From Argopecten irradians (taxonomy: Eukaryota; Mollusca; Bivalvia; Pectinida; Pectinidae): a DNA stretch of 64,000 nt. The position numbers and the translations under genes are program-made. Position 1 is the stretch's first letter. Every line of letters begins with the position of its first letter. The notes below the pieces were generated by a model. That model was given only the letters and a program-made list of their open reading frames with translations, ran no database searches and was not told the DNA's origin. Positions 6,001-43,202 of the stretch are shown here, piece after piece. Location: contig NC_091144.1 in assembly GCF_041381155.1 (NCBI RefSeq), forward strand, positions 31,242,980 through 31,306,979, in the 5' to 3' direction.

Positions 6001-8656
6001 GTACGACATGAAATGTTGTGTAGAGACTTCAGGTCATACTGTACGACATGAACTGTTGTGTAGAGACTTCAGGTCATACTGTACGACATGAAACTGTTGT
6101 GTAGAGACTTCAGGTCATACTGTACGACATGAACTGTTTGTGTAGAGACTTCAGGTCATACTGTACGACATGAAATGTTGTGTAGAGACTTCAGGTCATA
6201 CTGTACGACATGAACTGTTGTGTAGAGACTTCAGGTCATACTGTACGACATGAACTGTTGTGTAGAGACTTCAGGTCATACTGTACGACATGAAACTGTT
6301 GTGTAGAGACTTCAGGTCATACTGTACGACATGAAATGTTAATTGTGTAGAGACTTCAGGTCATACTGTACGACATGAACTGTTGTGTAGAGACTTCAGG
6401 TCATACTGTACGACATGAAATGTTGTGTAGAGACTTCAGGTCATACTGTACGACATGAACTGTTGTGTAGAGACTTCAGGTCATACTGTACGACATGAAA
6501 CTGTTGTGTAGAGACTTCAGGTCATACTGTACGACATGAACTGTTGTGTAGAGACTTCAGGTCATACTGTACGACATGAACTGTTGTGTAGAGAGACTTC
6601 AGGTCATACTGTACGACATGAAACTGTTGTGTAGAGACTTCAGGTCATACTGTACGACATGAACTGTTGTGTAGAGACTTCAGGTCATACTGTACGACAT
6701 GAAATGTTGTGTAGAGACTTCAGGTCATACTGTACGACATGAACTGTTGTGTAGAGACTTCAGGTCATACTGTACGACATGAACTGTTGTGTAGAGACTT
6801 CAGGTCATACTGTACGACATGAAACTGTTGTGTAGAGACTTCAAGTCATACTGTACGACATGAACTGTTGTGTAGAGTTCAGGTCATGTAGACATGAATG
6901 TTGTTCAGAGACTTCAGGTCATACTGTACGACATGAACTGTTGTGTAGAGACTTCAGGTCATACTGTACGACATGAAACTGTTGTGTAGAGACTTCAGGT
7001 CATACTGTACGACATGAAACTGTTGTGTAGAGACTTCAGGTCATACTGTACGACATGAACTGTTGTGTAGAGACTTCAGTCATACTGTACGACATGAAAT
7101 GTTGTGTAGAGACTTCAGGTCATACTGTACGACATGAACTGTTGTGTAGAGACTTCAGGTCATACTGTACGACATGAAATGTTGTGTAGAGACTTCGTCA
7201 TACTGTACGACATGAATGTTGTGTAGAGACTTCAGGTCATACTGTACGACATGAACTGTTGTGTAGAGACTTCAGGTCATACTGTACGACATGAAATGTT
7301 GTGTAGAGACTTCAGGTCATACTGTACAACATGAAATGTTGTGTAGAGACTTCAGGTCATACTGTACGACATGAACTGTTGTGTAGAGACTTCAGGTCAT
7401 ACTGTACGACATGAAATGTTGTGTAGAGACTTCAGGTCATACTGTACGACATGAACTGTTGTGTAGAGACTTCAGGTCATACTGTACGACATGAACTGTT
7501 GTGTAGAGACTTCAGGTCATACTGTACGACATGAAATGTTGTGTAGAGACTTCAGGTCATACTGTACGACATGAACTGTTGTGTAGAGACTTCAGGTCAT
7601 ACTGTACGACATGAAACTGTTGTGTAGAGACTTCAGGTCATACTGTACGACATGAACTGTTGTGTAGAGACTTCAGGTCATACTGTACGACATGAACTGT
7701 TGTGTGTAGAGACTTCAGGTCATACTGTACGACATGAACTGTTGTGTAGAGACTTCAGGTCATACTGTACGACATGAACTGTTGTGTAGAGACTTCAGGT
7801 CATACTGTACGACATGAACTGTTATGTGTAGAGACTTCAGGTCATACTGTACGACATGAACTGTTGTGTAGAGACTTCAGGTCATACTGTACGACATGAA
7901 ATGTTGTGTAGAGACTTCAGGTCATACTGTACGACATGAACTGTTGTGTAGAGACTTCAGGTCATACTGTACGACATGAACTGTTGTGTAGAGACTTCAG
8001 GTCATACTGTACGACATGAACTGTTGTGTAGAGACTTCAGGTCATACTGTACGACATGAACTGTTGTGTAGAGACTTCAGGTCATACTGTACGACATGAA
8101 ACTGTTGTGTAGAGACTTCAGGTCATACTGTACGACATGAACTGTTGTGTAGAGACTTCAGGTCATACTGTACGAATGAACTGTTGTGTAGAGACTTCAG
8201 GTCATACTGTACGACATGAAATGTTGTGTAGAGACTTCAGGTCATACTGTACGACATGAAATGTTGTGTAGAGACTTCAGGTCATACTGTACGACATGAA
8301 CTGTTGTGTAGAGACTTCAGGTCATACTGTACGACATGAACTGTTGTGTAGAGACTTCAGGTCATACTGTACGACATGAAATGTTGTGTAGAGACTTCAG
8401 GTCATACTGTACGACATGAAATGTTGTGTAGAGACTTCAGGTCATACTGTACGACATGAACTGTTGTGTAGAGACTTCAGGTCATACTGTACGACATGAA
8501 CTGTTGTGTAGAGACTTCAGGTCATACTGTACGACATGAACTGTTGTGTAGAGACTTCAGTCATACTGTACGACATGAAATGTTGTGTAGAGACTTCAGG
8601 TCATACTGTACGACATGAAATGTTGTGTAGAGACTTCAGGTCATACTGTACGACAT
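1..8656. repeat. 40-bp satellite array, about 216 units
   Basis: Head-to-tail tandem array of a 40-bp unit running from the left edge of the window to 8656, so its true left end lies outside. The unit starts GAACTGTTGTGTAGAGACTT and continues through CAGGTCATACTGTACGACAT. Three forms intermix and differ only at the start: GAACTG, GAAACTG (41 bp) and GAAATG. Rarer variants carry TTAATTG (about 3066-3165, 5652, 6340) or small deletions (6866-6905, 7193). The rest of the unit is almost invariant, which points to strong homogenisation. Each unit contains an imperfect 15-bp dyad, GTCATACTGTACGAC. There is no open frame of note. A centromeric or heterochromatic role is possible but not shown. Confidence 0.98.
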
Positions 8657-9984
8657 GTATTAAAAGCAACAAAATAGCATTTAAAAGTTGTTCATTCTAA
8701 ATTTATTAGAATTAATAGAAGAATTGCTACGATTACAAGGCATCTGGTTTCTTTCGGATCTAAGTAAAGTTGTAGCGATAACCTCAGTATATTGTTCAAG
8801 AATCCATATAAATATAACTGATCCATTAAAGCTTCTTTGTCAGCCATCCTCATATACCATTTCACACAACAAAATGTTCTTTTATGTTGACAGCAGAACC
8901 AAATAACAGGTTAAGTTTCTGATTCCATAACTGGTATTATTCTCTGTTCTAGCCTACATCCGAACAAAAGACCAGTGCACGCCGAATAGCCGTCAAAGTT
9001 CAAAGGGCATTGAGGTGTTAGTGAGTAGTTGCAGCGTGATAATTGCAGTCTTACTTCTAGTTGTGGTACCCTGACCTGCTTGCACTGGTACGGCATGTGT
9101 CTAAACTGGGCAGACGACGTGTTCATGCTAAGACGAATCCGAACAGGGGTGGGTGGACATCGATGTTCAAAGTATGGCGATGTCTTCATAAAATTAATGA
9201 AGTTTTGAGCGAAAGATGAAACCAAACAGGGTGATGGGCGAATTCTGTTATAATATGACGATGTTTTCATGCCAAGATGATTCAGACAGGGTAAGGAGGA
9301 TTGAAGAATGACGAAGTCTTCATAATATGACGATGACGTTTTCACTCCGAGATAAATTCAGACATGGTGATGAACATACATTATAGATGTGTAAAGTCGT
9401 CTTTATGAGGAGATGAATGTAGAATTAGAGTTTAGTCTGAGAGGAATGTCAGTTCTTGGTGTGGTGTGGGGGGCGCGAGAACGTACAAAACGTGAATCCT
9501 GTAATACTTCTAGAAAGTAAGTGGTGCACTCATTGTAATGTGTTTCAAGGCTAGCTATAGTCGTCCAGATTGGTACTCACTCGGTACTGTAGCTCTACAA
9601 TACAGTCCTACAAATAACACAACAAACATTCAATTTGGTGAACTTTTTGAAAATATCAACATAGGACAGCATTCAACAGGAGATTCCAGAGGGATCTTGG
9701 AGTTCAACACGAAATGATCTATGTCAGTCAATAGAAATAACAGACATTAGTGAACTTTCAAAAATATCAAAACATATAACAGCATTCAATAGGAGATTCC
9801 AGAGGGATCTTTGAGTTCACCATAAAATGATATATGTCAGTGAACGGCAAGAAGGATTTTCTTCCCTGCTTTTCCCTTCCTTTGAAATATATATGGAGAA
9901 ACTTCACATAAGTCGGCATAGCACCAACAGATCTAACGACCATATAATGCTTGCAAAGATTTGTTTCAAAATGGATATGTAGAA
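8657..9984. other. Intergenic region with degenerate short tandem repeats
   Basis: No gene is supported here. About 9165-9375 is a degenerate tandem repeat: blocks of the type ATGACGATG..TTTTCAT..GATGATTCAGACAGGGT recur two to three times. About 9640-9850 contains a second duplication, in which the stretch GGAGATTCCAGAGGGATCTT occurs twice about 118 bp apart with similar flanks. A 144-codon open frame on the minus strand (8911-9345) runs over the first repeat and resembles no protein I know. Confidence 0.6.
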
Positions 9985-17457: not shown

Positions 17458-20400
17458 ATGGTAGGTGCACGTGGGTTTTAGCGTGTTATTGAATTATTCG
17501 TTCAGTGTTATTTTTTGGCTTGTTGACGCACATTAATCAGATGTATTTGATGTTGCAACACATCAGCAATACTTAGATAAAAAAAATTGCGATACTGATG
17601 CTGCTCTTTCATGTCCACAACAAATGGAACGGAGTTGGGCAGCTGCCGTAATCAAAATATCTACAATATTTAGCACATTTGCAGCGTGCTGTAAAAATTA
17701 CAAAGAGCAAGTACAAGATTTCTCATTTTTATGCCATATTTTATCGATTGAATTTACTCTAATTTTGATTATTGATTAATAGTTTTTCATTTTACGACGT
17801 TTGTTTACCACGTTGTTTATACATTGTAATTTTTAAGTGGTGGGGAGGGGGGGGGGGTAATCCCTATTGAGATTCCTCCTCTAGACATTTTATATTCGGA
17901 CGTTGATAGATGTCTTCCGAGAGACATCTATCAAACGTCCGAATATAAATCAGTCTATTGGAATCTCAATAGGGATTAGGGGGGGGGGGGGGGGGGGGAT
18001 AAAAACGGAACCACTATTGGGGTAGGTATTTGCAAGTGTTATCTAGTCAAGGATTATAAATACATCAATTTGAGTTTGTTTTGTATTCTTAATATCTATA
18101 ATAACTTTAAATATTTGCATGCAATTTTGTTCTTTAATTTTTCAGGGAGTTCAAGTGCTCTTTGCTCTGTATGAGCATGCCTCAGGGTATGCGTTATTCA
18201 GGGTCAAAGAGTTTGAAGAGGTGGGCATGCAAATTCCCCAAGTTGAACAAAGCGTTACAGACCCAAGTAAATTCCAATCCATTGTCCAATTAGTAGCATT
18301 TTCTCCTTTTAAAAGTGGAACAAATGCCCTCGACAACATCAACAGCATCTCAGAAGGTAAATTTAATTGTCAAGCGAAGTGATTGCTTCGCTCATAAAAC
18401 ATTGCGAGCAGCAGATTGTGGCGAAAAGAAATATTGAAAAATATAATTCTGGACTGTTTAACCTAAAAATATAAACGGAAAAAATACTCATCATTCATTC
18501 AAAATAAATAAAAGAAACATTTAATTGCTGAAAGTGTTTGAATGAAAATTGAGTCATTGATTTGTTCTTTCATTAAAACTGCAGAGAAAATCATATTAAA
18601 CAATTCCTATGATTTGTGCATGAATTACTCGCTTATTTATTTATTAGGTCTGCTGCATGATGACCTCAAATTGTTCCTCGAAACACATGTCCCTAAGCCT
18701 GGTAAAAAAGAGAAAGTTGTGGTTGGAGTGGCAGACTCAAAGATTGGTGCCGCCATAACAGAAGAGCTAGGGTTCAAGACCAACCACATAGGCGTAGTAC
18801 CTGAAGTATTGAGAGGTATAATTAAAAAAGGCTAGAAGAAGAAATCAGGATTTCCTCTGATTGTATATAATAGTTATGAGAAACAAATTTTGTCAGATAT
18901 TTGTGTCAGATGTAATCTGACAATTGAACAGGATGCAAATTTAATAAACCTTATAAATAAATAATTGAACAGGATGCAAATTGAAATAGCAAATAGAACA
19001 GTCGAGTGATATACAGCATCATCTAATATACTTAGGTATTTATAATGAATAGAAGAAATCAATTGATATCAAAATTAATTATGGGGTATTGAATTGATTT
19101 CAAGAAATTAAATCCCCAAAACATGTATTGTTTGGTGAAAGTCAATTTTGATAGTCATCGATACGAGTAATGATGAAATTGGCTATATGGACTAGAGTCT
19201 CTGAACAGGATGTTGATAGCCATTTCTGAGTCTTGTATGAAGTTGCAATTAAATTAATTCTTTATGAATGATGTTACAAATTTAACAGTTAAGGGAGTAC
19301 ATTTGTAAAGGAAAATGGAGAAAACTGTAGTGTCACTCAACTACTTTCTACTGTATTTCTCAGTGGTTTCTCCTATCAGCAAAGGGAGGATATCTCTGGA
19401 CTATTGCCAGGAAACCTTTCCCTTAGGTCATTTAGACTAGGTTTCACTTTCAATCAATCATCAATCAATTGATCAGTTTTCTCCATTCTAGAACCATTAT
19501 CTCTAGAAAATCATTTGGTTCAATTATTTGAAATATTGCAAAATTCTGCCAAGTAAAACATATTATGCATATCATCTAAACACTTAGATTGAATCAATCA
19601 ATTATTAATGTTATTATCAACTTTTTGTTTAATATTGACAATATTTGGAAAATTAAAGGGAAAAGATGAGTTTTACAATTTGATATCATCTGATACATGT
19701 ATACCTTTAGGAATCCGGGTGCACTTCAGTAGAATGGTCAAGGGGCTAAATGAGAAGTCAGAAAGTAAGGCACAATTGGGACTTGGTCACAGCTACTCAA
19801 GAGCCAAGGTCAAATTCAATGTCAACCGACAGGACAACATGATCATACAGAGTATCAGCTTACTGGATCAGCTGGACAAAAACATCAACACATTTTCCAT
19901 GAGGATCAGGTACAATTCATATTAATATCAGGTCAAGATGAAAGAACTACCGAATATGAGCCTGATGATTTACTAGGTTAAATACTATTCTGACTCGCCT
20001 GTAAATTTTAAATCATCAATGCAAAGTTTATGATTAATTAGATTATCTTTTATAGATTAAATCGCTAAGAAAACATTTATTCCAAAACTACCAAAAACAG
20101 AAATCAATGATGAAATTGGCTTTATGGACTAGAGTCTCTGAACTCCAAATGCTGATAGCCATTTCTGAGAATGTAATAACATTTCAAAATAATATAATGA
20201 AAATTTAAAAAGTTGTCGTCATTGTTGAAATATAATGGTTAACTGTTAATTTTTCAGAGAATGGTACTCATACCACTTCCCAGAATTGGTGAAGATTGTC
20301 AATGACAACTACATGTTTGCCAAGGTAGCTCGATACATAGGGAACAGGAAAGAGTTTGATGATGACAAACTGGAAGGCCTAGAGGAGATTGTCATGGACA

Positions 20401-23400
20401 GTGGCAAGGCTTCAGCCATTCTGGACGCTTCAAGGTCATCCATGGGTTAGTATGGTTATCTAATTCTAACATAAATAACTGTGTAGAAGTTTACAGATCA
20501 AAATACAGATTGGCTAAATGCATTTCTAATGTCGATGTACACATTCATAAACTGCTTGAGTAACATCAACATCCCTCTGATTAAATTATTAAACATTCAA
20601 ACATTGGTTCATCATGACAGGCTGACACGTTTCCTTTCACTCCATTGCCAGTGTTCTGTCTAGACAACAGGGTCCACGTGCTTGAAAACATCAAAGGATT
20701 TTCGCTGGGAAACTCGCTATAGTCCGGTTTCAAAGTTGGTGGCAGTTCCCTTTGAAGTGACAACTGTCTAGCTACAAGCTTTTGGGCTATTGTCTGTTTC
20801 AAATAACTTCAGAAATAATGAACTTAATAAGGGCGCCCTCATCGCCAATTACCCACATCCTGCGCCCTCTTTAGGTTAAATACAGTATATAAGTGAAATG
20901 TATTGTAATATCACATGTGGTTAATCTATGTTATTAAATAATATTGTTTTGATTTTTTCCTAATTATGTGTATTGAAACATATTAACATACTGTGATGTA
21001 CTTTGTATTTTCACATTAGGAATGGACATCTCACCCATTGACTTGTTAAACATTGAGACGTTTGCCACCAAAGTTATCTCCCTTACTGAATACCGGATGA
21101 GCCTAGCCCAGTACCTCCACAGTAAAATGAGCCAGGTAGCTCCAAACCTTGCCACACTGATCGGTGAACAGGTAAATTATTAAGCTCAAGATAGAACAGT
21201 TGACCCTTGACTTTTAGTAGATTTAGACATCTTACTCTACTCGACACAGTACAGATATATAATTATCTCATGACTCGTGACCATAGATTGGAGACTGTCG
21301 AGAGTTACACAAGGTTGGAATGTATTCACAGGAAATGATGAAATTTGGCTTTATGGACTAGAGTCTCTGAAAATCATGTTGATAGCCACTTCTGAGTCTT
21401 GTGGATTTTATCGTTAAAAGTTATTTCTTAATCGCTGAAACTTGGAAAGAGAAATTAATTTTGAATTCTGAAATTAAACCTTTTTACAGATAACATGACA
21501 TTAACATATTTTAATCTTTGTCCTAAGCTCCTTCATGGCAATAGGATCTGTTTAAACGTAACCGTAATATAATACAATCTTAATGTTGTGCAATGTTTAG
21601 AAAGGTGAATATGAACAAAACCAATGACAAGAAATAAAAAACTGTAATAGTGTTTTAGAATTGTATTTCTATACCAGTCTTTTCAGTATAAAACAAGATT
21701 TATATCCCATTCAAAGAAAAATAATAAACTTGACTAAAAAACTCTAATCTTTAATGTAAAACATGTGATACTTATATAAGGAAATTGAACAGGATGCAAA
21801 TTCAAATAGCAAATAGAACAGTCGAGTGATATACAGCATCATCTAATATACCTAGGTATTTATATTTAATAAAAGAAATCAATTAATTATCAAAATTTAT
21901 TTTGGGGATTTGAATTTATTTCAAGAAATTAAAAGTCAATTTTGATAGTCACCGATACAAGTAATGATGAAATTGGCTTTATGGACTAGAGTCTCTGAAC
22001 TGAATGTTGATAGCCATTTCTGAGTCTTGTATGAAATTGCAGTTAAATTAAGTCTATATAAATAATATTGTAAATTTAACAGATACGGTAAGGGAGTACA
22101 TTTGTAAAGAGATCAGAACTCATTTATCATAGTTAGTATTCATAGAAATTATTTATGCTCAAAGCTGTATGGTCTATGACTTGCTGTCTTTCTGTTATAG
22201 AAAAAGCATTTAAACTGTTCTACATATTTTTCTCTGCCTCTCTAAGTTTTAAACTTTTCATATTTGCTGACATTGGTAGAGTTCATATTCAATAATTTAA
22301 TTTGAATATTGATTTTTCATGTGTACAAATTTAAAATAGCTTGGAAATCTCTGAACTGTTCAGATCTATTCCGATCTGTATGCGTTTTGCCGATGTTGGT
22401 CACATGATACAACTCTGGAGGTTCTGATCTATACCGGTATCACTGATGCAAGTCATGTAATGCAACTCAGTGTTTCAATATTACTCGATAGATTAAAACA
22501 TGACATTGATCTATGGCTGGTTTTCAAATATATGATGTTCTTTCCCTTTATCTGAATGGTATGTCTGTGATTTTATGGATATGAATCATCAAATATCTGT
22601 GCATTAATTTTCACACATTGTATGTTTAACAACAATTTATTAGAGTGGAAATTACATGAAATACAACTTAATCTGATTGGAGGGATTTCTCTCTGATCAA
22701 TTAATATTCTTGGGGTTTAGAAGAACGTATGTATTGGTCTAAGTATAGAAATAGAGATATTTGCTGGAGGTAATGTTTAGTCTTGTCATGATCAGTCAAT
22801 ATTGTAAATAGACTCAAAAAGAAATTTTTAAGTGAAATTTTAATTGTAAAATTTGATTGCTTATACTTGCTAAAACATTTACCATTGTTCTGCTGGGAAA
22901 GACAAGTAATGATGAAATTGGCTTTATGGACTAGAGTCTCTGAACTGAATGTTGATAGCCATTTCTGAGTCTTGTACAGTATGTGTCAAATTAAGTTGAG
23001 GATGGAAGGACAAAATTAAAAAAACAAATCTGTTATGGCAGCAGTGCTTCTATTACATACAAATTATTGTACCAGCGATTGTACATGTATGTATTACCCC
23101 CCCCCCCCCCCCCCCCCCCCCCCAATTTATTTTCTGGAATTCCTTTCATAATATCCATGTGTGTAAATATTATTTACAGTGGTGAAGAGTTTGACTTGTG
23201 TAGAATTTAAAGTAAACAAACTGAAAGTTTTTCACACAAAAATGTAAAAGCCTAGAAATGATGAAATTGGCTTCATGGACTAGAGTCTCTGAACTGAATG
23301 TTGATAGCCATTTCTGAGTCTTGTACAGTACATGTGTTCAATGTGGGAAATGAAAAACCAAAAACAAAATAACTGCAATTTAATATGACAGAAGTTCTAC

Positions 23401-26400
23401 TATTATAATACATAAATTAGTGCTACAAGTCATTGTAAAACTTGTATAAATTCTTTTTCTATTTATATCCTGACATTTTAGTATCAATAGCCATGTGTGT
23501 AAATACATCTACTATATAGTGGGTACATTTCCTGGGTGATACTTCTTTGTAGTGCCAGTGTAAATTTCCTGGGTGGTCTATCTTTGATAAACTAGGGCAC
23601 GGTTGTACTGAAACCTTCAAATTCAAAACCCTAGCAAATTATTTCTTCATTATCGTACCATTGTCAGTGGGCTTAAATTTGGTTACAGTATACCCTATCC
23701 AAATTCCACTGCAACCAATTATACTCAAAATTAACCAAAAAGAAAATATAACATGGACACCATTGAAACTTAATCGTATATATTGCATTTAGAAGAATTA
23801 TTGTACCTTGTAGTTAAACCCCTGTGCTCGCATCTTAGTCTATTAGAAGTTGTCTGTCAGTCAAACTTAGCTATATAAGTAGTTCTGTATACGAAACTAC
23901 GAAATATAAATGGTGCAAATTTTAAAGAGTTGTACTGGTAATAGCGGAGGATTGAATTGTGTAGGAAAGAACTTACAAAGTAAATGGTCTGAAAGCTTTT
24001 CACAACTTAACATAAAGCCTAGAAATGATGAAATTGGCTTTATGGACTAGAGTCTCTGAACTGAATGTTGATAGCCATTTCTGATAGGGCAGTTACCTAC
24101 AGTGGGTGTTTTTGTACAAATTAACATTGCTCGAAATGAGTGATCATCAGTCCTTTTAATTTCTATGTAACAATACAAACTTTATTCTTTTTCACTAAAA
24201 CTTGTATACCTAATAAAATGCTTATTCACAGTAATGGATCACTACCAGAAAGCATATTAGATACTTGTATGTAATATTTTCAATATACATGTATCTGTAA
24301 GATTTTCACATATGCATGCCTTTACTTGCTACTGTATCAACAAAAAAGGATGAAATTGGCTTCATGGACTAGAGTCTCTGAATTTTGTGATGATAGCCAT
24401 TTCTGATTTCATAAAACAGAACCAACAGGTACATTTATTGTAAATAGTACAAAAAGACGCAAGTAAGATAAACATTTTTGATTTGATATGTGTTCATTTT
24501 TTCAGTGGTATATAGACACTGCCTACTAAACTAACCTATGCCAGTATGGGTCATTAATTTGATTAAAATCATTCCTGATTGACATATATGGATCTAAGTT
24601 AAAAATGAAGAATCATAAATGTCAAATGAAGAACACATCAGGTCAATAAAACAACTCCATAAAATTTAAAAGATAATGGATTTGACAAGGAGTGAAAGCT
24701 TAAGACACACACAAAAAAAGCAAAACAGCGTCATTTAACTAATCCATAACAAATCCAATTTATTCAAAGTAATAAAAAACTCATGCATAACTGATCAGAT
24801 AAGTCTTTATAAGTGTATATATGATGTTGGGTTTGCTACAGGTTGGAGCCCGTTTGATAGCTCATGCAGGATCCTTAACAAACCTCGCCAAGTATCCAGC
24901 CTCCACAGTACAGATCCTTGGTGCAGAGAAAGCACTATTCAGGTAAAATCAATTAAAAACTAAATACGAAACAAATTTGATGCAGTATTATCTCATTCCC
25001 CGCTGAAATTTTATAATGGACTGGTCTAGTCTTTGATTTATAAGAGTTTCAATGTGTCTTTAGGGGTGACTGAGTTAATGTCTTTTCCCTAATTAGTTCA
25101 TTGAATTTGTGATATATTTTCATCAACTGATAATTTCTAAGAACATGTTTTGAATTATGTCACTGATAATTTCTAAGAACATGTTTTGAATTATGTCGCC
25201 ACAATGGCTTTGGGGAGAAGGAAACATATAAAATGTAACTCAAGTCAGTCCTATTTCATCCTGTCAAATTTCTCTGTCCTGTAAAGATTTGATGTGGAGA
25301 CAGGGCCATTTTATGATTTATGTCTCACATTATTTATAGTTCTGACGTAAGCTGCTAGATTACATTATTACACTGCTTGAAATGATCACTACGGGGGGTG
25401 GAGGCGCAACATCCTGGGTTATGGAAAATGTAGAAATTCTTGATGGAACCGGCCGTGGATTCAAAAGAATAAAGAGGCCTCACTTGTAATCCAGGTGAAT
25501 GTATAAAAGAGCGAGTCCAACACGGTAGTTCCTTCCAGTAAGCTGATTTTTTAATCAGATAGTTGTTGACATGTTTCGACTCTAAGCTTCGAGTCGAAAC
25601 ATGTAGTTGTTCTGGGCACGACTCGCTTATAGTCGAATCATGTCAACAACTATCTGATTAAAAAATTAGCTTACTGGAAGGAACTACCGTGTTGGACTCG
25701 CTCTTTTATACATTTAACTGCTGGAAAATGGTGTAACTTATGTGTGAGGGGGGGTGTATCTATTTAGCCACTTCAGAAACATCAGTAATGCAGACTTTTT
25801 AATCAGTATGTGTAATCAACAAAGTTGAGGGAGGAGGGTATACTGGAATCGGGTTGTTCATCTGTAGACACAACTTTGTCCGACAAACTCCTAAACTACA
25901 TGACAGATTTTTGAAGAGCTTCCAGAAGTAGAAGTGCTACAATCGAGTGAACGAAAGTTATATTCTGGAAGTAGAAGAGGGCAAATCGAGTTAGGCGCAG
26001 GACACATCCAGCAGAAACAATAAGAAACATTTATATGTCACATTTCACATCAAATATTTTACTTTACAGAGCTCTGAAGAGCAAAGGAAATACACCCAAA
26101 TATGGACTGATATTCCACTCAACATTCATCGGTCGTGCTGGCACACAGAACAAGGGACGTATTTCACGTTATTTGGCCAACAAGTGTTCCATTGCCTCCA
26201 GGATTGACTGCTTCTCAGGTGAGAAATAAATAAGATAAGGTGTAAGGATCTCTGTTAAATAAGTCGTAGATGGATTAACAAATGGATGATGACATTGCCT
26301 TTATGGACTAGAGTCTCTGAATACCATATGTTGATAGGCAATTCTGAATTTGTTAATCTTGTCTTCACATTTACAGTACTGCTTTCAGAAACATATTAAT

Positions 26401-29400
26401 TTCAGTGAAAATATTTTGATTGTTTAAAAGGCAAGATAGTATTCTTCTGGCTCTTTTTTTTATGTATTACTTCGAGTTCTGGAGTTACACAATTGATATC
26501 ATTATGAAAAGTTTGGGGAAATCATATGTAACTTTATGTAAAAGTTTGACTCCTTTTTTTATGTGTAAATAAAAACACTCACCAACCCTCCCTCACAGTA
26601 TTATCTGAATAATAGCCCAAAAAACAAGTTTTCAAGCCTGCCAACCATATCCCACAAGTGATTTTGGAAACCTCCTTCTAAAGCCTGCCATGATCTGATA
26701 TGTTACAGAGTATCCTACTTCCGTGTTCGGGGACCATCTCAGACAGCAGGTAGAGGACCGACTCAAGTTCTACGAGACTGGTGATGCACCTTCCAAAAAT
26801 GTGGATGTCATGAAGCTGGCAGTAGAAGAGGTTAGTTGTGGCATAGATGTCCTATTCTTGGTCAAGCTTTTGAGTTACACATACTGTGAAATCATTTATT
26901 TTCGTTGGGCTCAATTTTCGTGGATTCTAAAATTTTACAATCTCGTTGGCATTTAAATTCGTGGAGAAGACCACACTCAAGCGGAACTAAGCTCTACCAC
27001 ACAACACAGTTACAATCACAATCTAAAGTCGGTACTCAGCCAGTGTTTTTACAGATGTGTCCAACAAACAATTATCGTGTCATATAGATAGAGTCATGAT
27101 ATACCCAATCAATTATTTGTTGGTAAATGTAGATGAAGTCTATGAAATTCTGAAGACTATCTTTGTTTGAACAATATTTTCCAACTTTGAACTTGTCATG
27201 CTTGTCCCCGAAATAGACCTTATGTAGTGAGGTAATAATCATCCTACACTGTGTATTTCTGAAGGCATAAACTTACATGACATTGGTATAGGTATATATA
27301 CTTTCATGGGGATGTAAATTCGTTGATTTTGGTCAAAAAACGAAATCCACGAATATTAAACCCCCACGAAAATTAATGATTTCACAGTACTTACTTGCTT
27401 TGCGTTACTTAAAGTGGATGATCTATAATGCAGGTTCCCTCAGGACCCTCTATATTGCACTACGAATCATTTCTATTACAATTGATATCATCTCTGTGAC
27501 ATCTGGTGATGTTCATTGTGGCTATATAATCATCATGTACTAAATCTTGTTTTCCCAGTAGTTGTCAAGCCTAAGTTTGAAGGACTTACAGCTGTGCTAC
27601 CCCAACTGAGAATGTTGCGTGTATATTAACCCCTATCGCTCTACCGTTGACTTGTACAATTGAGGTAGCACGGCTGTAAAGTCTTTGTGCTTTAATACAA
27701 CCTCATCCGCTAAACTTTTATTTCTTGCCTCAAAGTGCTATTTTCAGTATAAAGATATGTTTTTAGTGTTTCGTGATGAGAGATCTTTCAAACTATTTTC
27801 AAGAGATCTTTTCGAAGCATTTGAGATAAAACGGATTTGTTTGGTAAAAATATTTGTAATTATGTTACTATATAGCTGGTTATTTTCCTATTAATTTCTA
27901 TTTTCACTAAAAATCAGATCTGTGAAATGTATGTTGAGAAATGATTAAACCATATATATCCTTATAGCCAGATAAGGAAAAAATTTGAGTTGCATAACTG
28001 GCTACGCAGAATGTAGGAAAAGCAGAAGTGCTTTCATAAAACATGAATTGTTACAATGCATCAATAAAATAAGATTTATCAAATTATTACCTACAATGTC
28101 ATTATCCCCCAGTTCTCAGTACCGTATTCGACCCAATAAGCGCCCGGGGCGTTAAAAAAATTGAAAAGGTGCTAATAAAACCGTAATTTTTGCCAAATCT
28201 ATACAGTTATGTGTATTTTTGGTCTTTCTTTATGCGTGGGCAATGGGGCGCTAATTTGGTCGAATACAGTACATCTAATTCCGTGATAATATGGAACTTA
28301 GGATGACCACGAAGAACTGTGAATCCCTCATAAAAATCTTTTTTTGACACTAATAATTAACACTTGAAATCGAGTGAATATAAAATTTTCAAGCTCTAAC
28401 CATATCCCAAATTGAAGAAGAAACCTCCTTCTAAAAACTTTGAATCTGATAGCTGTTAGATCCTTGTAGTTTGGAAGTGACCATCAGGAGAGTGATGGTG
28501 CTGGATGTGAAGAAAAAAAGAAGAAGAAAAATGAAAGATACTGCGAAATGATGCACCTTCTAAACCTGTGTGTTGATTTAAGCTATTCGTAAGATTTTGA
28601 GGTTACGATAAGATGTGCATAAAACATACTTTCTGGGATATCTTGGTCAATACTTACTTGCTTTTAGTTACAGTTACTGTGGAATGTTTATGCTTTATGA
28701 TCAGCAAGCTTTCCGTGGTTTCTAAAATGTTTTCTCGTTGGCATTTAATTATACAGTTACATGACCACATCAAGCGGATGTGCTTCATACCACACAACAC
28801 ATGGTGTAAAAATTCTAAAGTCGGTACTTAGCCAGTGAGACTTGTCCACAAACGGAACGGGTAAAAATGAATAAATTGTTAGATATTGATTGCTAAATCA
28901 ATTATTTCTTTATAAAAGTTGTAAAATAAAGACATGTTTTTTATATGTGTTAAATGTGATGAATGTGTCAAAAAAAATCTTTGAAATCTTTCGTTAAGCA
29001 TTTGAGATCTTTGAAATAGGATTTTAATAATCACCTAATATTTTCTGATTAAAATATTGTAATTAATAGGTATTACTCCACAATTAGCTGGTTAATAAAG
29101 TTTTATATTTTTATTTGCATAAAATCAGTCCCGATTTTTTCCCTGTGATATCTTTGTGGAAATCGTGTATTTGCATAGACATTTTACCTATTTATTTTGA
29201 ATCATATTTGGGAAATTCTAAAAAATAAATAATTTTTATAATTTTGCATAATTTTATTAGCGAAAATTACGCCGATTATTATGTTCAATAATTTTTTTGA
29301 AACTCACATTTCTTCATTACGTTAACTATGCTTTTTTTTTACATTTAATAAAATAAGAAATTGCTCAAAAATTATACCTACTTTGTCATTACGATTTAAT

Positions 29401-30039
29401 ATTTTCAGTATCCGTATTGACCCAAACTTTGTATATAACTGTCTTTGAAAACATCTAATTAAAAAAGCATTTGCACTTTAAATTGAAAATAACAATTAAA
29501 ATACACTATTCAGTTATGAGTGTGGGCAATTGAACTCGAGGCCTCGAAAAAGGGGGAGCGGGCGTTTAATAGGGACATGGGCGCTAATTTGTTTCGATAT
29601 ACAGTACATCTAATTCCCGTGAATTAATATGGATAACTTAGGATGACATTCGTAGACTGTGAAATCCCTCGATAGAATCTTTTTTGACACTAATAATTAA
29701 ACACTAAACCCAAACATTTTTCACAGGCTTCAGAGAGGTACAGAAAACAGCTAGCAAAGAAGTGTGAAAAGGAAAAAGAAGAAAAAAGACAAGAAGAGGA
29801 GAAATCGGAGGCTGAACTGACGAGAGTGGCTGCTGGAAACTCAATGGAGGCCCGATACAAAACGGCTGATAGATGGACTATGAAGAGGACATTGGCGCTG
29901 TCCACTCCTAAAAAGAAGAAGAAGAAGAAGTTCCAAGAGTGAAGAGGTAGAGGTAGCTAAGGAAGTAGATGAAGCAGGAGATGCTGGTGGTGAAGAAAAA
30001 AAGAAGAAGAAAAAGAAGAAGAAGAAGAATGACGACTAG
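17458..30039 (+). CDS. NOP56: Nucleolar protein 56, box C/D snoRNP core protein (10 coding exons)
   Basis: Core protein of box C/D snoRNPs with NOP58, fibrillarin and 15.5K; acts in rRNA 2'-O-methylation and pre-rRNA processing in the nucleolus (family knowledge). Exons: 17458-17460 (ATG only, donor GTAGGT), 18146-18356, 18648-18815, 19711-19909, 20258-20445, 21020-21171, 24842-24942, 26070-26218, 26709-26830 and 29727 to the end. Phases agree, and the frame gives 502 codons to a TGA at 29940. The NOP5NT-type N-terminus ([15 protein letters not shown]) is followed by [18 protein letters not shown] and the Nop domain ([47 protein letters not shown]). It matches NOP56 rather than NOP58 throughout. 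An extra T near 29931 appears to shift the frame; read in the next frame the tail is acidic, then poly-lysine, stopping at TAG 30037-30039, as expected for NOP56. Introns 3, 4, 6 and 8 host snoRNAs. Confidence 0.95.
17858..17978. repeat. Snapback inverted repeat flanked by G-runs (NOP56 intron 1)
   Basis: Arms AATCCCTATTGAGATTCC and GGAATCTCAATAGGGATT enclose a second nested pair, TATATTCGGACGTTGATAGA with its complement, and a 4-base loop near 17922. Runs of about 11 G and about 20 G sit immediately outside both ends. It looks like a small MITE or foldback element; the G-runs may form quadruplexes. Confidence 0.8.
18964..19310 (+). repeat. snoRNA-bearing duplicated segment, copy A (intron 3)
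   Basis: This ~350-bp stretch, starting ATTGAACAGGATGCAAATTG and ending AAGGGAGTACATTTGTAAAG, recurs with small differences at 21783-22109 in intron 6. Each copy carries one snoRNA. It shows that at least one snoRNA copy moved as part of a larger intragenic duplication. Confidence 0.85.
19161..19238 (+). ncRNA. Box C/D snoRNA, family copy 1 (intron 3)
   Basis: Box C ATGATGA 19170-19176, box D' CTGA 19201-19204, box C' TGTTGAT 19211-19217, box D CTGA 19226-19229. A 7-bp terminal stem (ATACGAG with CTTGTAT, one G-U) sits two bases outside the boxes. The guide upstream of D' is GGACTAGAGTCT, complementary to the conserved 28S rRNA segment GACTCTAGTCC. By the D+5 rule it would methylate the U of GAC(U)CUAG. 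This is structural prediction only. Confidence 0.88.
20107..20168 (+). ncRNA. Box C/D snoRNA, family copy 2 (intron 4)
   Basis: Box C ATGATGA 20107-20113, D' CTGA 20138-20141, C' TGCTGAT 20150-20156, D CTGA 20165-20168. The same 28S-directed guide lies before D'. No clear terminal stem. It is the copy best placed for splicing-coupled processing, with box D about 89 nt before the exon 5 acceptor. Confidence 0.82.
21324..21406 (+). ncRNA. Box C/D snoRNA, family copy 3 (intron 6)
   Basis: Box C ATGATGA 21335-21341, D' CTGA 21367-21370, C' TGTTGAT 21377-21383, D CTGA 21392-21395. The terminal stem ATTCACAGG with CTTGTGGAT gives 9 bp with two G-U pairs. Same guide. An extra T in the segment after box C and AGCCACTT before box D differ from the family consensus. 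Confidence 0.85.
21783..22109 (+). repeat. snoRNA-bearing duplicated segment, copy B (intron 6)
   Basis: Partner of 18964-19310, with the same boundaries and small indels; it contains snoRNA copy 4. Confidence 0.85.
21955..22032 (+). ncRNA. Box C/D snoRNA, family copy 4 (intron 6)
   Basis: Box C ATGATGA 21964-21970, D' CTGA 21995-21998, C' TGTTGAT 22005-22011, D CTGA 22020-22023. The terminal stem ATACAAG with CTTGTAT is a perfect 7 bp; copy 1 has a G-U at one of these pairs, so pairing is kept. Same guide. Confidence 0.88.
22901..22976 (+). ncRNA. Box C/D snoRNA, family copy 5 (intron 6)
   Basis: Box C ATGATGA 22909-22915, D' CTGA 22940-22943, C' TGTTGAT 22950-22956, D CTGA 22965-22968. 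The terminal stem is ACAAG with CTTGT. Same guide. The flanks resemble those of copy 6, suggesting a local duplication. Confidence 0.85.
23097..23123. repeat. Poly(C) run of 27 bases
   Basis: Homopolymer in NOP56 intron 6, between snoRNA copies 5 and 6. Its length is probably variable or uncertain in the assembly. Confidence 0.9.
23258..23317 (+). ncRNA. Box C/D snoRNA, family copy 6 (intron 6)
   Basis: Box C ATGATGA 23258-23264, D' CTGA 23289-23292, C' TGTTGAT 23299-23305, D CTGA 23314-23317. Same guide, with TTCATGG instead of TTTATGG ahead of it. The terminal stem is weak: the left flank has changed to CCTAG while the right flank keeps CTTGT. Confidence 0.8.
24025..24084 (+). ncRNA. Box C/D snoRNA, family copy 7 (intron 6)
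   Basis: Box C ATGATGA 24025-24031, D' CTGA 24056-24059, C' TGTTGAT 24066-24072, D CTGA 24081-24084. Same guide. The left flank (GCCTAGAA) is shared with copy 6, and the right flank (TAGGGC) can pair only imperfectly with it. Confidence 0.8.
24347..24406 (+). ncRNA. Degenerate box C/D snoRNA, family copy 8 (intron 6)
   Basis: Box C is AGGATGA (24347-24353), departing from RUGAUGA. D' CTGA 24378-24381, a C'-like GTGATGA 24387-24393 and D CTGA 24403-24406 remain, and the guide is intact. There is no terminal stem. Possibly a decaying copy. Confidence 0.65.
25499..25714. repeat. Long hairpin element with ~80-bp arms (NOP56 intron 7)
   Basis: The left arm, starting AATGTATAAAAGAGCGAG, and the right arm, ending CTCGCTCTTTTATACATT, are near-perfect complements over about 80 bp, one base differing near 25548. 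The centre holds a second small palindrome, TTTCGACTC..GAGTCGAAA. No coding potential. It looks like a recent foldback MITE and would form a long dsRNA stem in the pre-mRNA. Confidence 0.88.
26275..26366 (+). ncRNA. Box C/D snoRNA, divergent family copy 9 (intron 8)
   Basis: Box C ATGATGA 26286-26292, D' CTGA 26327-26330, C' TGTTGAT 26339-26345, D CTGA 26354-26357. The 9-bp terminal stem TTAACAAAT with ATTTGTTAA is perfect. The 28S guide GGACTAGAGTCT is unchanged although much of the rest differs. The segments after C and before D read ATTGCCT and AGGCAAT and pair perfectly, whereas other copies have ATTGGCT and AGCCATT. Confidence 0.88.
26882..27389. mobile_element. MITE with ~45-bp terminal inverted repeats (NOP56 intron 9)
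   Basis: Ends TACTGTGAAATCATTTATTT and AATTAATGATTTCACAGTA are complementary, and the similarity continues inward through TTTTCGTGG-type motifs. TA bases at both outer edges could be the target site. A truncated, error-rich relative of the left end lies near 28670. Confidence 0.8.
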
Positions 30040-30315
30040 AACCTGTGTGTTGTTAACTGAGGTTTAAGGGAAACAGATCAGATTGTGAAAATACTAAAGA
30101 CATACTTTAGAGGGATATCTGGAAAATATGATACAAGGAGAAGATTGGTATGGTTGTATAATATTAGATACCAACGGAAGTTGGTTTTTGGTTTATGAAA
30201 AGCAGCTGGTTTATGTTTCCATATTTATACAAGTTCATGTTCATAGTAAATGTGACTTACATGGGAAAAAATCATCAATTTTAAGATAGACTTTTACAAA
30301 GAAGGGGGGAAAATG

Positions 30316-30321
30316 AATAAA
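30316..30321 (+). terminator. Candidate NOP56 polyadenylation signal
   Basis: AATAAA lies about 280 bp after the TAG at 30037 in AT-rich 3'UTR sequence, and is repeated in degraded form near 31964 in the duplicated block. Choice among AATAAA motifs here is inference. Confidence 0.45.
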
Positions 30322-31421
30322 ATTGTTTATTTGATTTTTGAAATAATTTCTTTATTAAAAGCAAAAAAAAATCTACATTTGGGACAGTTGTGGAAGCTTT
30401 GTTAATATATCGTATGTGTACAATGTATAAAAAATATACATATAAACTCTTTGTTATTAGAGGGAGATTGATGAATAGTTTTAATAACTCAAATTTGCTC
30501 AGATAAAAAAGTATAAAATTCAGCGTATCAACAGCAAGATGAGCATAAAGTGCTGACACATTTGGTAGGGTATTAGGTAGTTCTTCATGTATGAGTGGAA
30601 ATCTGACAACTTTTGTGTTCATATGTGGATTTAATAATATCCATCTTTTTTCTAACTGGGAAACAATTTAGTAGTAAATTATTATTTCCTGTTATGCATG
30701 AATTTCATTTCGTTAAGCTTTCGCATACGACTTGTCACACATTTGTTAATACTCGCATTATAGTATACAATTAAAATGCATTTTAAAAATACTACTTTTG
30801 TTGTTATTGTGACGTGGTGAGTTAACTGTCTCTGTACCATCAAGAGCGGCTATCCTAGAATGCACCTTAGGCTGTTAGATATGGATGTATACGGGTACCA
30901 CCCTAGACCGAACCAGCCAACCTAAAGAGGGCTATTTTCAGTTAATGTTAGATATGTTTTTTGTGTTTCGTGATGCGAGATACTATGTACAAACTATTTT
31001 GTGAAGTGAAATCTTAGTTTACAATGCATCAATAAAATAAGAGCGTTTATCAAATTATTACCTACAATGTCATTACGCTCGCGGCCTTCAATTGTTACCC
31101 CATTCTCAGTACCCCCCCAGTTCCAGTACCATTATTCCGACCCAATAAGTGCCAAAGGGCGTTTAAAAAAATTGAAAAGGTGCTAATAAAACTTAATATT
31201 TTCAAATCTATACAGTTGCGTGGGCAATTGAAAGTCGATTCCTCAAAAAATGGGGAGGGGGTGCGTTAATTAGGGACATGGGCGCTAATTTGTTCGAATA
31301 CAGTACATCTAATGTCCGTGATAATATGGAACATTAGGATGACCATTAAGTAGACTGTGAATATCCCTCATAAATCTTTTTTGACACTAATCATTAACAC
31401 TTACCCAAACATTTTCACCAG

Positions 31422-31724
31422 GCTTCAGAGGTACAGAAACATCTAGCAAAGAAAGAAAAGAAAAAGAAGTAAAAAAGAACAAGAAGAGGAAATCGTGAGG
31501 CTGACGAGAGTGCTGCAGAAAAATCATTACAATGGAGGCGCTATACAAACGGCCTGATATGGACGATGAGACACTTGTCACCTCCTAAAAAGAGCAGAAG
31601 AAGAAGAAGTCCAAGAGTGAAGAGTAGAGGTAGCTATGGAAGTAAGATGAAGCAGGAGATGCTGGTGGGGTGAAGAAAAAAAGAAGAAGAAAAAGAAGAA
31701 GTGAAGAAGAAGAATGACGACTAG
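31422..31724 (+). pseudogene. Broken second copy of NOP56 last exon
   Basis: It follows an acceptor-like TTTTCACCAG and reads like exon 10 (GCTTCAGAG.., the lysine-rich AAGAAGAAG blocks, GACGACTAG at the end), but with many frameshifts and internal stops. It has AGTCCAAGAGTGAAG where the first copy has an extra T, so it helps identify the frameshift at 29931. Either a duplicated exon or an assembly artefact. Confidence 0.7.
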
Positions 31725-33127
31725 AACCTGTGTGTTGTTAACTGAGGATTTAAGGGGAAACAGATAAGATTGTGAAATACTAAAGACATACTTTTAGAGG
31801 GATATCTAAAGTAAATATAGATTCCAAGGAAGTTGGTATGCTCATTATGAAAAGCAGCTGGTTATTGTTTCATATTATACAAGTTCATGTTCATAGTAAA
31901 AAAATGTGCTTACATGGGAAAAAATCCATCAATTTTTAAGAGACTTTAAAAGGGGGGAAAATGTAATAAATTGTTAATATTGATTTTGAAATAAATTCTT
32001 ATAAAAGAAAAAAAAAAAAAAAAATCTACATTTGGGACAGTTTGTAGAAGCTTTGTTAATATATAGTATGTGTACAATGTAAAAAAAAATATACATATAA
32101 ACTCTTTGTTTAGAGGGGTGAAATGAGTTTTTAATAACTCAATATTGAATCGATATAAAACTGTATAATTCTGCGTATCAACAGCAAGATGACATAAGTC
32201 TGACAACATGTTGCCAGGGTATTGGTAGTTTCTTCTTGTAAGATTGGAAATACTGTAACAACGATTGTGTTTCATTATGTGGATGTAAATATCGCTAATC
32301 TTATTATTATAACTGAATCATATTAAATTCTTTAACTCGTGTTACATAATTTCATTTCAAAGCTCGCATAATTTTCACCATCTGTAGTACCCGATTTTAA
32401 CCATAAAATGAATTTAAAAAACTTTACTTTGGTGTTTTTTAACTTTTGATTAACTGTCTGTGTTCCAAAAAGGGGCCTCATCAAAATGGAACTTCATATT
32501 TTTATGACCGTTAATCCCGACCAAACCAACCTTGAGGGTAATATGATGTTAGTGGTAATATGATGTTACGACCTAACCAACCTAAAGAGGCAAAAGGGCT
32601 TATCCTAAAATGACCACTGTTAATGTTATTAATTTTTTTTGTCTTTGAAGCGCTAGTTTATGTACAGCACTAAATTTTGTGAAGTGTAAATCGGGTATTG
32701 AACCACTGAATATCCGCGCTAATAAATAATATTTTTTACATATTCGTATTTGCATCCTGTCTTTAACGACTTCCTTTGAAAGAATACAGAGACAGCGACG
32801 GTCATCTTGAAAGCCACACATTAAACCCTAGTGTACCGTTATGCGATTCTTTTGATGTATATCAAAGGGTCAAATTCAGCTGAAATTACATGTCTTATGT
32901 TGCCTTCAATTTTACTATGATATAATTCAGGGTTGGATATTAAGACAGCGATAATAATCCCCTTGTCCCCTTTAGAATCGAGGATGAAGTGATGTGACTT
33001 AAGTCTCAGGTTTCATATGTGGAATTTAGCCAGGATAACTTTGAACTGGTTAGAAACCTGCATGCATTAAGTTATCAAAAACTTAAATTACTTAAATCCT
33101 TTTAGATGAAGGTCAACAATTACTGCT

Positions 33128-39840: not shown

Positions 39841-41233
39841 TTTCGACAAAAATCAAATAAGTTATGAGATTTCAAATACAATTTATCAATATCTGAAACA
39901 AGTTGCTAGTTGCAAATTTTGTCAAAAAATACATCTATATTCTTAGCAGATTTTTTATACAGGGATTTTAAGAAATGACCAATTTGGAAATTGTGTCTTT
40001 TTTCGCTTTGAGTAGAGCCACAGTTTTACCATTTTTTTTACTAAAATTGTTTTTACTTAAATCATCACTGCGCTAGCATTTTTAGCTGTATCCAGCTAAT
40101 TTTGCTGAAAATCTTTACTGGGTTCGTGGTTATTAAAATGTTAAGCATTAATGTGTGAAATGATACACTTTTGTCACTTTATTTTTACATTTAATGGTAA
40201 TTTGACCATTTTTATATTTACTTAAAATACTGAGAAATAACAAATATTCAAATGGTACAAAAAAGTAAGCACATATACCCCCATTTTTTGCAGTTTGATT
40301 TAGAAAAAATAACCCTTTCATTATTAACAAAAGTTTTATACCAGAACTATTTTCTATAAAGGGTTAAAGTTGGCAAAATAGCTGAAAATGGTGCATTTTG
40401 TAGCTCAAAATTAAGTGGTAGGGGCAGCATATGTTGTTTTTCTGAGAAAAAAATAATATTCTTATTCATCAAAACTGGTATATTTTTAAAGAGGACTAGT
40501 GGAAAATTAATTCCCAGTAAATCCAATATTTTGTCAACTAGGTATCTAGTACAATAGTTCAAAAACAAGCACACGGACATATGTTTTTTCTTCAATTTTC
40601 TTTTTTGGTATGAAGTCCTATTTCCAATAATCTATATGAGAAAAAAAGTTTAATACAAAAAAACGTTGACTTCTCAGAGTAGTACATCTTTAAGAAACTT
40701 TTTTTTTTGGTTCGGAAAAGTAGTGGGCCTTTAACGAAAACTGTCTAGTGCGAAAAGTGCTAAAATGATTACAGCTAAATATATCTAGGCTTACAGAAGT
40801 ATTATAGTAGATAATTTCAAGTCGTAATGTTGATTAGTACTTTGTCGATCTGTTTGAGAATTTCATCAAAATATGTAAGAAAACGTTTCAGGAGAATAGT
40901 CGTGGCTCGTGTTGATGTACTCAATATATGCACTACACCATTTAGTTACGTTCTTTTGATTACAAAAATCAATATCATGTGACGTATTTGACAGAATTTC
41001 GACAACTGAAGTATGTTTCTGGTACTTTTCAGAAACTCCTAAGGAATCTTTCTCAATTTGATGCAGGTTCTCATTGGTCCTTATTCATAAATGCTATATT
41101 CTGTGATGGAAATGTGATTCAGACATCTTGAATTTTTGACAAAATTATTAGTTTTAATGTATAGAGTCCCCGTGTTAAATTAACATTGGCGAAAAAAGGA
41201 GATAAAAAAGCGGATACAAGTTCCATATTTTAA

Positions 41234-41798
41234 AGGGACAATTCGGTCTAAGAGAACATTAAAATTTGTACATATATTGGAAACAAACCAGTTCTAATGG
41301 AAATTAGATCAGTCGGTTTTACTGTGATATGCCAGAAAAGCCCATGGTGTTGAAATGTGTGTGAAATATTAAACTCGCTCGCTGTCCGCCATTACACATT
41401 GTGGTCAAAAGTCTTGTATGCCGAACCCTGTCCCTTGCTCGTAAAGTAATGCAACTTTTGTATAGAACTGCTCAAATCGCTCTGACAGTAGTGCGTTTAC
41501 CTTATTAGGTGAATTGTCTTACCTAAAAATCATTTTATCACCTCCTCAGTGGTTATGTAGTTCATTTGTTTAGCGTGCGTGACTTTGGCTCGGGTAAGGG
41601 TACAACGTATACATGTACCTGCTTTATCGTATTGATCAACGATTTGTAATTTCAATGGTATCAATTAAAATACTTTACAATGACGGGGAATTTGTCAATA
41701 TTTTATGTTATATGTTTCATAAGAAATGTAGAACAATACATTTATGCCATTTTTGCTTCTTGGTTATGTAAAAGAATTAGCCTGAGTGAATTGTCCCT
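41234..41798. mobile_element. 565-bp TIR element with TTAA target sites
   Basis: Terminal inverted repeats AGGGACAATTC and GAATTGTCCCT are flanked by TTAA at 41230-41233 and 41799-41802. The duplicated copy has the empty site CCATATTTAAATTTC at 47672-47686, so insertion came after the duplication (or the element was lost from copy 2). A TTAA target is typical of piggyBac-like elements; no transposase is present, so this would be a non-autonomous member. Confidence 0.85.
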
Positions 41799-43058: not shown

Positions 43059-43202
43059 TATAAATAGACACAGGGAATCCCCGGTCTCTTCTACATTTTT
43101 GACCAATCAAAAAAGAGCATTGCCGATCATCGGGCAATAGCCAAATCAAACATGGCTGACAACAGTGTGGTTGGATTAGGAAAGTTATTTTACACACGTT
43201 AA
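43059..43202 (+). promoter_or_regulatory. TATA-box plus 16-residue frame, duplication copy 1
   Basis: TATAAATA at 43059-43066 lies about 90 bp before an ATG at 43152 in good context (CAAACATGG) that opens MADNSVVGLGKLFYTR and stops at TAA 43200-43202. A CCAAT (GACCAATC) is at about 43101. The same arrangement is in copy 2. It resembles a promoter with a first exon, but no donor or downstream exon was found. Confidence 0.35.

Follow-up and report, generated by a model that had tools for sequence, protein, structure and literature searches.

Nine putative SNORD52-type box C/D snoRNAs within the introns of a scallop NOP56 gene

Introduction

The SNORD58, SNORD12, SNORD50 and SNORD53/92 families, with two or three expressed members, have been ascribed to local recombination, and a human study argues that multiple snoRNA copies do not answer to total rRNA demand. 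SNORD52 (also called U52, snR78 and snoR37) is cited there, in favour of this view, as a highly expressed human singleton; its target is 28S U3904 (Um3904), a site near the catalytic centre of the ribosome. SNORD86 is described as an orphan snoRNA and a splicing sensor in human NOP56. This background is drawn from the following sources: PMC11028025, PMC8178906, PMC3511168, PMC10324135, PMC13228274, PMC12309372, PMC10234308, PMC8817022, PMC6461891, PMC9892063 and PMC8162545.

We analysed a 64,000-nt stretch of Argopecten irradians DNA (the window), in which the introns of NOP56 contain nine copies of one box C/D element. The reading we favour, with a probability of about 0.78, is that these copies would be cis-duplicated, partly redundant canonical snoRNAs with a SNORD52 guide, supplied together with NOP56. 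The SNORD52 naming, the presence of six copies in one intron and the extended stem II are new with respect to the first-pass annotation of this DNA.

Results

Nine copies in four introns of NOP56

The frame of the host gene was open across exons 1-9, with GT/AG borders throughout, and gave 431 aa in the gene model, exon 1 probably being a coding exon of ATG alone. Residues 5-429 of this frame matched human NOP56 (7mq8_SA, E 3.4e-202), and 422 of the 431 residues (98%) were identical to NOP56 of Pecten maximus, confirming the host named in the first-pass annotation. The 3' end of the gene was disordered: the last-exon region was present twice, with an indel-rich second copy (29506-30839 vs 31208-32467, 114 mismatches and 89 gap openings).

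17458..26830, + strand: NOP56, the host gene, exons 1 to 9 with the eight introns between them; the remaining exons lie past 26830
21172..24841, + strand: intron 6 of NOP56, 3670 nt, holding six snoRNA copies

The search with ATGGACTAGAGTCTCTGA permitted up to 3 mismatches and found the sequence exactly in all nine copies, every match having 0 mismatches (shuffle expectation, 0.05 matches). The copies, of 60-62 nt, lay on the + strand within 19170-26347, and their assignment to introns 3, 4, 6 and 8 stood up to both the pattern search and the gene model: six copies in intron 6, and one each in introns 3, 4 (ending at 20257) and 8.

19170..19229, + strand: copy 1, intron 3; the limits are those of box C and box D, and ATACGAG/CTTGTAT forms the terminal stem
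20107..20168, + strand: copy 2, intron 4; 89 nt from the end of the D box to the 3' splice site; without an adjacent terminal stem
21335..21395, + strand: copy 3, intron 6; terminal stem ATTCACAGGA/TCTTGTGGAT, 10 positions
21964..22023, + strand: copy 4, intron 6; same core as copies 5 and 7
22909..22968, + strand: copy 5, intron 6
23258..23317, + strand: copy 6, intron 6; weak terminal stem
24025..24084, + strand: copy 7, intron 6
24347..24406, + strand: copy 8, intron 6; C' GTGATGA, C box degenerate (AGGATGA) and terminal stem weak
26286..26347, + strand: copy 9, intron 8; terminal stem ATTAACAAAT/ATTTGTTAAT; internal helix with a compensatory change

Searching the 846-Mb genome for the exact guide plus D', a pattern blind to copies with an altered guide, gave 9 forward and 0 reverse matches, every one of them in the NOP56 cluster (about 0.19 matches predicted from base composition), and a looser pattern recovered the same nine loci genome-wide. 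The first-pass annotation had named scattering as an ordinary interspersed repeat among the outcomes that would refute its proposal; guide plus D' showed no such scattering, and a dispersed repeat was rejected for this sequence, neither the exact nor the looser pattern having matched outside the nine NOP56 loci. The disordered 3' end, with its duplicated last-exon region and many indels, and the low-quality label of the Pecten NOP56 record would suit a misassembly that multiplied the copies. We find this hardly credible, given the open frame and GT/AG borders over 17458-26830, the differences between the flanks of the copies (scattered substitutions in the unit of copies 1 and 4) and their spread over four introns.

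Box and guide anatomy

The elements of a representative copy, copy 4, were as follows.

21964..21970, + strand: box C, ATGATGA, alignment columns 17-23
21974..21978, + strand: internal helix that lengthens stem II, 5' arm, TGGCT, columns 28-32
21983..21994, + strand: guide, GGACTAGAGTCT, 12 nt, invariant in 9/9 copies
21995..21998, + strand: box D', CTGA
22004..22010, + strand: box C', ATGTTGA, one mismatch vs RTGATGA
22012..22016, + strand: 3' arm of the internal helix, AGCCA, columns 68-72
22020..22023, + strand: box D, CTGA

Box C matched RTGATGA exactly in eight of the nine copies (the exception being AGGATGA in copy 8) and box D was CTGA in all nine, which, with bodies of 60-62 nt, bears out the box C/D anatomy first annotated. 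The proposal of a single family with a constant 12-nt guide held as well: no alignment column varied among the nine copies in the guide (0/12) or in D' (0/4), variable columns numbering 6/7 in the D'-C' loop (gap columns included) and 2/7 in box C'. Stem II is lengthened in these copies by an added internal helix, absent from the Rfam SNORD52 model. Covariation for this helix came from one pair in one copy (copy 9), a result equalled by 53 of 500 shuffles, and the consensus fold of the naked RNA pairs the guide with itself as well.

Terminal stems were above background by both stem score and RNAcofold in copies 3 and 9, by stem score (2.4% and 1.5%) but not RNAcofold (15.6%) in copies 1 and 4, by RNAcofold but not stem score in copy 5, and by neither measure in copies 2, 6, 7 and 8. 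A scan of 17461-29800 for C/D boxes plus a terminal stem recovered six of the nine copies, missing 2, 6 and 8. Its candidates at 19935-19993, 27093-27153 and 27506-27609 were too weak to be accepted as further C/D snoRNAs; two more candidates overran copy 6.

A SNORD52-type guide

The nine copies carry what we identify, from the guide letters, as a SNORD52-type guide, that for human 28S U3904; the family name was missed in the first-pass annotation. In the alignments of copies 3 and 8 to SNORD52 (RF00276), the D' guide GACUAGAGUCU and the following CUGA agreed letter for letter. Since the D' guide GACUAGAGUCUCUGA is common to SNORD52, the expected target would be 28S Um3904. The best copy (copy 3) scored 32.5 bits, below the Rfam gathering threshold of 45 bits; consequently, we speak of SNORD52-type copies and do not file them as members of the Rfam family. 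The E-values of the model were weak (0.0012 to 0.38 for the 18 kb searched; genome-wide best 0.013) and, at E up to 10, it also found matches in 14/14 prokaryote controls. With such scores, E-values and control matches, the identity rests on the guide, D' and boxes.

The genome-wide RF00276 search, in which 64 of 431,336 candidates were scored, gave 20 matches at E up to 10 (copies 1-8 and 12 loci elsewhere, copy 9 being absent); given this fraction scored and the 14/14 controls matched, weak matches to the model mean little. Four of the 12 loci outside NOP56 were inspected, and three (L015-L017) lacked the guide. The fourth, L012 on contig C1, scored 30.7 bits, above six of the eight listed copies, and has boxes C and D, a 7-bp terminal stem by eye and a degenerate D', making it a possible tenth, divergent relative; its intron presumably belongs to an ARID1-like gene. 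Searching the scallop assembly for the target, with patterns for a 79-nt 28S segment, the 16-nt target and a 17-nt sarcin-ricin sequence, gave no match. As all three rRNA patterns were absent, rDNA seems to be missing from this assembly, and the result is no evidence against the target.

Duplication and divergence of the copies

Two of the copies lie in a longer duplicated unit, present once in intron 3 and once in intron 6, the two occurrences differing by scattered substitutions.

18963..19310, + strand: duplicated unit with copy 1, 83% over 354 columns to its partner 21783..22109
21783..22109, + strand: duplicated unit with copy 4, partner of 18963..19310

Flanks were also common, in series, to neighbouring copies of intron 6. 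The cores of copies 4, 5 and 7 were identical, and the most divergent copies were 8 and 9, in which guide and D' were nevertheless unchanged. Of three pairs compared, two showed slower change in the cores than in the flanks, and both include copy 6: 5-6 (flanks differing at 29/123 aligned positions, cores at 1/60) and 6-7 (9/64 and 1/60, respectively). The contrast was absent from pair 1-4 (p 0.59).

These values bear on a mostly neutral duplication, in which one or two copies would work, the others being passengers or young pseudogenes, and some would be alike through recent origin or gene conversion. The identical cores of copies 4, 5 and 7, the damaged C box of copy 8, the lack of core-flank contrast in pair 1-4 and the background-level terminal stems of 4/9 copies are consistent with it; in one paper, human expressed C/D snoRNAs have stabler stems than non-expressed ones, whereas the trend is reversed in mouse, a reversal put down there to a single host with 204 silent copies. 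The diverged flanks around almost unchanged cores in pairs 5-6 and 6-7, and a guide and D' constant in 9/9 copies, including the divergent 8 and 9, argue against it. We regard neutral duplication as possible, at odds clearly short of even; it overlaps with the favoured reading of partly redundant SNORD52-guide snoRNAs, and the odds of the two therefore need not sum to one.

NOP56 splicing and the fate of intron 6

The first-pass annotation suggested that the copies might act as a sponge or sensor feeding back on NOP56, an idea that gained no support, donor-like sites being near background and the tested snoRNA-intron pairing within shuffles. In a SNORD86-like form (the SNORD86 study is reportedly that of Lykke-Andersen in 2018), one or more copies bound by core proteins would turn NOP56 splicing towards an unproductive form, thereby setting the NOP56 level. 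Host gene and protein complex are the same as for human SNORD86, the 5' splice site of intron 8 scores highly and copy 9 starts 67 nt past it, and a high-scoring donor-like site lies 64 nt downstream of copy 4. Nevertheless, SNORD86 is described as acting through competing donors on both sides, and donor-like sites up to 150 nt downstream of the copies numbered 5 (about 3.7 expected), with 0 for copies 1, 2, 3, 6 and 9; thus copy 1, the duplicate of copy 4, has none within this distance. No duplex between a snoRNA and neighbouring intron beat shuffles in the 7 regions tested, which covered copies 1, 2, 3, 8 and 9 (lowest fraction 0.105), and introns 4 and 8 did not exceed shuffled sequences in stability (z 0.49 and 2.74). 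A sensor would, moreover, have no need of an invariant rRNA-type guide, and we consider it very unlikely.

Another reading concerns intron 6, which, if trimmed at its ends alone, would leave an RNA of ~3.1 kb (21335-24406), a sno-lncRNA studded with C/D snoRNPs that would sequester NOP56, NOP58, fibrillarin and SNU13, thereby buffering the snoRNP supply. Six putative C/D elements lie within this one 3670-nt intron, at least two snoRNAs per intron being the mark of a sno-lncRNA, although their expression is presumed. According to reviews, two snoRNAs in one intron can give a sno-lncRNA, animals mostly having one per intron; both the SNORD86 transcript and LoNA have been proposed to act as snoRNA-bearing decoys for core proteins. 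On the other hand, endonuclease cuts between copies, or the splicing of small internal exons, would yield separate snoRNAs, and the three copies alone in their own introns would be unnecessary for a sponge. Four of the five gaps between intron 6 copies contain weak splice-site pairs, which speaks neither for nor against separate release. We judge the sno-lncRNA improbable, and a shade more so that intron 6 gives a long RNA with up to six like C/D snoRNPs, able to soak up NOP56 and its partners at many sites; if it did, NOP56 transcription would yield the protein plus its own buffer.

Discussion

Under the favoured SNORD52-guide reading, the nine elements would be transcribed within NOP56 pre-mRNA and then freed from the introns, and the D' guide would direct 2'-O-methylation of the 28S uridine equivalent to human U3904 (yeast Um2421), in a target predicted as the complement of GGACTAGAGTC. 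The family would have expanded by local (cis) duplication within one host, as the unit common to introns 3 and 6 suggests, its boxes and guide being kept near-constant by selection, with gene conversion possibly helping. Housing in NOP56 would couple the supply of the guide to a core snoRNP protein, and copy number would represent redundancy or dosage, with weak or silent copies possible (likeliest 2, 6 and 8). Dosage control of one modification was also suggested by the first-pass annotation; the human study speaks against rRNA demand as what drives multiple copies. Processing, the target in scallop and dosage are the steps that we infer. Six copies in a single intron sit awkwardly with the end-trimming of one snoRNA per intron.

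Nine putative SNORD52 guides, housed together in NOP56 with six sharing an intron, offer a direct test of dosage vs drift; if drift alone were at work, the cluster would be an ordinary cis duplication. The cluster would also test how animals process many snoRNAs out of one intron, and the copies whether an extended stem II substitutes for the terminal stem.

Among the literature matches listed, none described such an arrangement in molluscs. The copies resemble SNORD86 as predicted C/D snoRNAs within a NOP56 intron, and differ from that orphan in their conserved rRNA-type guide, no matching splice-site arrangement having been seen. They resemble the sno-lncRNAs described for the Prader-Willi locus and SLERT in having more than one snoRNA per intron, here as judged by sequence. 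With SNORD52 they share the box C/D layout and the D' guide GACUAGAGUCUCUGA, and differ in being nine copies in NOP56 vs one human gene, in the internal helix and in falling below the gathering score. Many C/D copies per host locus are also described for the SNORD115/SNORD116 arrays and mouse Snhg14, whose hosts are non-coding and whose families are large; they hold far more than nine copies, so the number found here sets no record by itself, and the host here, unlike theirs, is a protein-coding snoRNP gene with an rRNA-type guide. As in the cis-duplicated SNORD58 (RPL17), SNORD12, SNORD50 and SNORD53/92 families, the members lie within one host; unlike those families, this locus holds nine putative snoRNAs, six of them in a single intron.

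Nine SNORD52-type snoRNA copies in NOP56 introns

A pattern search of the window with up to 3 mismatches permitted (0.05 matches expected) returned 9 zero-mismatch matches to ATGGACTAGAGTCTCTGA, all on the + strand, from 19187 to 26320. Each is surrounded by an element of 60-62 nt (n = 9) containing box C, the D' guide, D', C' and D. The elements (copies 1 to 9, numbered 5' to 3') lie in a gene whose model matches human NOP56 by protein comparison and shares 422 of 431 residues with Pecten maximus NOP56, a likeness that makes a scallop the probable source of the DNA:

17458-26830, + strand, NOP56 exons 1-9, gene model with GT/AG borders
Intron 3, one copy (1); intron 4, one copy (2)
Intron 6, six copies (3-8); intron 8, one copy (9)

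Exact matches, boxes and gene model together bear out the nine-copy family described in the first-pass annotation; that observation is sound, the family can now be named (SNORD52-type), and its target, the 28S uridine equivalent to human U3904, is probable.

Conservation and origin of the copies

Guide, D' and D contain 0 variable columns across all nine copies, and 6 of 7 columns vary in the D'-C' loop. Only three copy pairs have alignable flanks (1-4, 5-6, 6-7); pooled, they show substitutions at 5/180 core positions vs 60/448 flank positions, and 0 vs 56 gap columns. This signal comes from intron 6, since it is given by pairs 5-6 (p = 7e-5) and 6-7 (p = 0.017), which have copy 6 in common, but not by pair 1-4 (p = 0.59). 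The contrast fits purifying selection on the cores; gene conversion could also have kept them uniform. Duplicated units (18963-19310 in intron 3 and 21783-22109 in intron 6) and flanks common to neighbours in series (copies 5-6 and 6-7) fit the cis duplication route described in published accounts of C/D snoRNA families.

Internal helix and terminal stems

TGGCT after box C can pair with AGCCA before box D (TGCCT with AGGCA in copy 9), so that 45/45 cells are paired in the alignment: four pairs are invariant, and the fifth, G-C in the other eight copies, is flipped to C-G in copy 9. The evidence is modest because 53/500 shuffles equalled this covariation. In the consensus fold, additional G-C and A-U pairs extend the helix toward the C/D motif, where stem II of a kink-turn starts; in this fold the guide is self-paired as well and would thus be hidden in naked RNA. 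The Rfam SNORD52 model has no helix at this position, and the copies therefore look like an old guide in a changed snoRNA body.

The share of intron background reaching the terminal stem score was 0.14% for copies 3 and 9 each, 1.5% for copy 4, 2.4% for copy 1, 8.2% for copy 5 and 16-61% for copies 2, 6, 7 and 8. RNAcofold singles out copies 9, 3 and 5 (0.5-1.3%) and leaves copies 1 and 4 unremarkable (15.6%), the two measures being at odds for copies 1, 4 and 5.

Genome-wide distribution

Across 845.8 Mb in 1508 contigs, the guide plus D' 16-mer (~0.19 matches expected from base composition) is matched 9 times on the forward strand and never on the reverse, every time in NOP56. Guide plus D' thus does not form the genome-wide interspersed repeat that the first-pass annotation had named as the contrary outcome. 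A looser pattern (GATGA, 6-22 bases, GACTAGAGT, 0-3 bases, CTGA) has 10 forward and 0 reverse matches, namely the nine NOP56 loci with copy 9 counted twice; read backwards, it gave 0 and 1. Further copies with an altered guide may exist, an example candidate being one locus (L012) matched by the SNORD52 model:

L012 1505-1579 (genome G000, contig C1, ~35.62 Mb), intronic C/D-like RNA with a host gene other than NOP56

It scores 30.7 bits, exceeding 6 of the 8 copies among the matches listed, and carries boxes C and D, a 7-bp terminal stem by eye and a degenerate D'. Its guide, by eye, could pair with the same 28S site if two G-U pairs are allowed. L012 is a possible divergent relative.

Neighbouring sequence and assembly quality

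Intron 6 holds a 27-C run (23097-23123) between copies 5 and 6. Long MITE-like inverted repeats in intron 7 (25492-25720, arms 95% complementary) and intron 1 (17858-17978) attract sub-threshold microRNA matches. A tandem array of 40-bp units (1-8657, ~215 copies, 97% matches) lies ~9 kb upstream of NOP56. The last-exon region of NOP56 occurs twice (29506-30839 and 31208-32467; 114 mismatches, 89 gap openings), its many small indels probably reflecting unpolished assembly; the Pecten maximus NOP56 record carries a low quality label. There is also a direct duplication of ~2.9 kb at 95% (41798-44713 and 47678-50629), with further matching blocks beside it (40098-41233 and 46541-47682).

Canonical guides or regulators of NOP56

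The best reading, at a probability of about 0.78, is that the copies act as redundant canonical guides released from NOP56 introns; the figure allows for the conflict between the two stem measures in three copies and for the L012 score. The first-pass annotation had proposed feedback on, or sensing of, NOP56 by the copies, and this regulatory role is unproven. Several observations speak against it: donor-like sites downstream of the copies are near background, snoRNA-intron duplexes do not beat shuffles for five copies, and the guide is intact.

Intron 6 is unusual, with six C/D elements vs the one-snoRNA-per-intron rule that published accounts give as predominant in animals. As a sno-lncRNA route is published for introns with several snoRNAs, intron 6 could, in our boldest reading, leave a long remnant bearing several snoRNPs. 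Nine copies alone are no record, since the single-host arrays described for SNORD115/116 and Snhg14 are larger than that of NOP56, and the NOP56 arrangement is an unusual variant on a known snoRNA theme.
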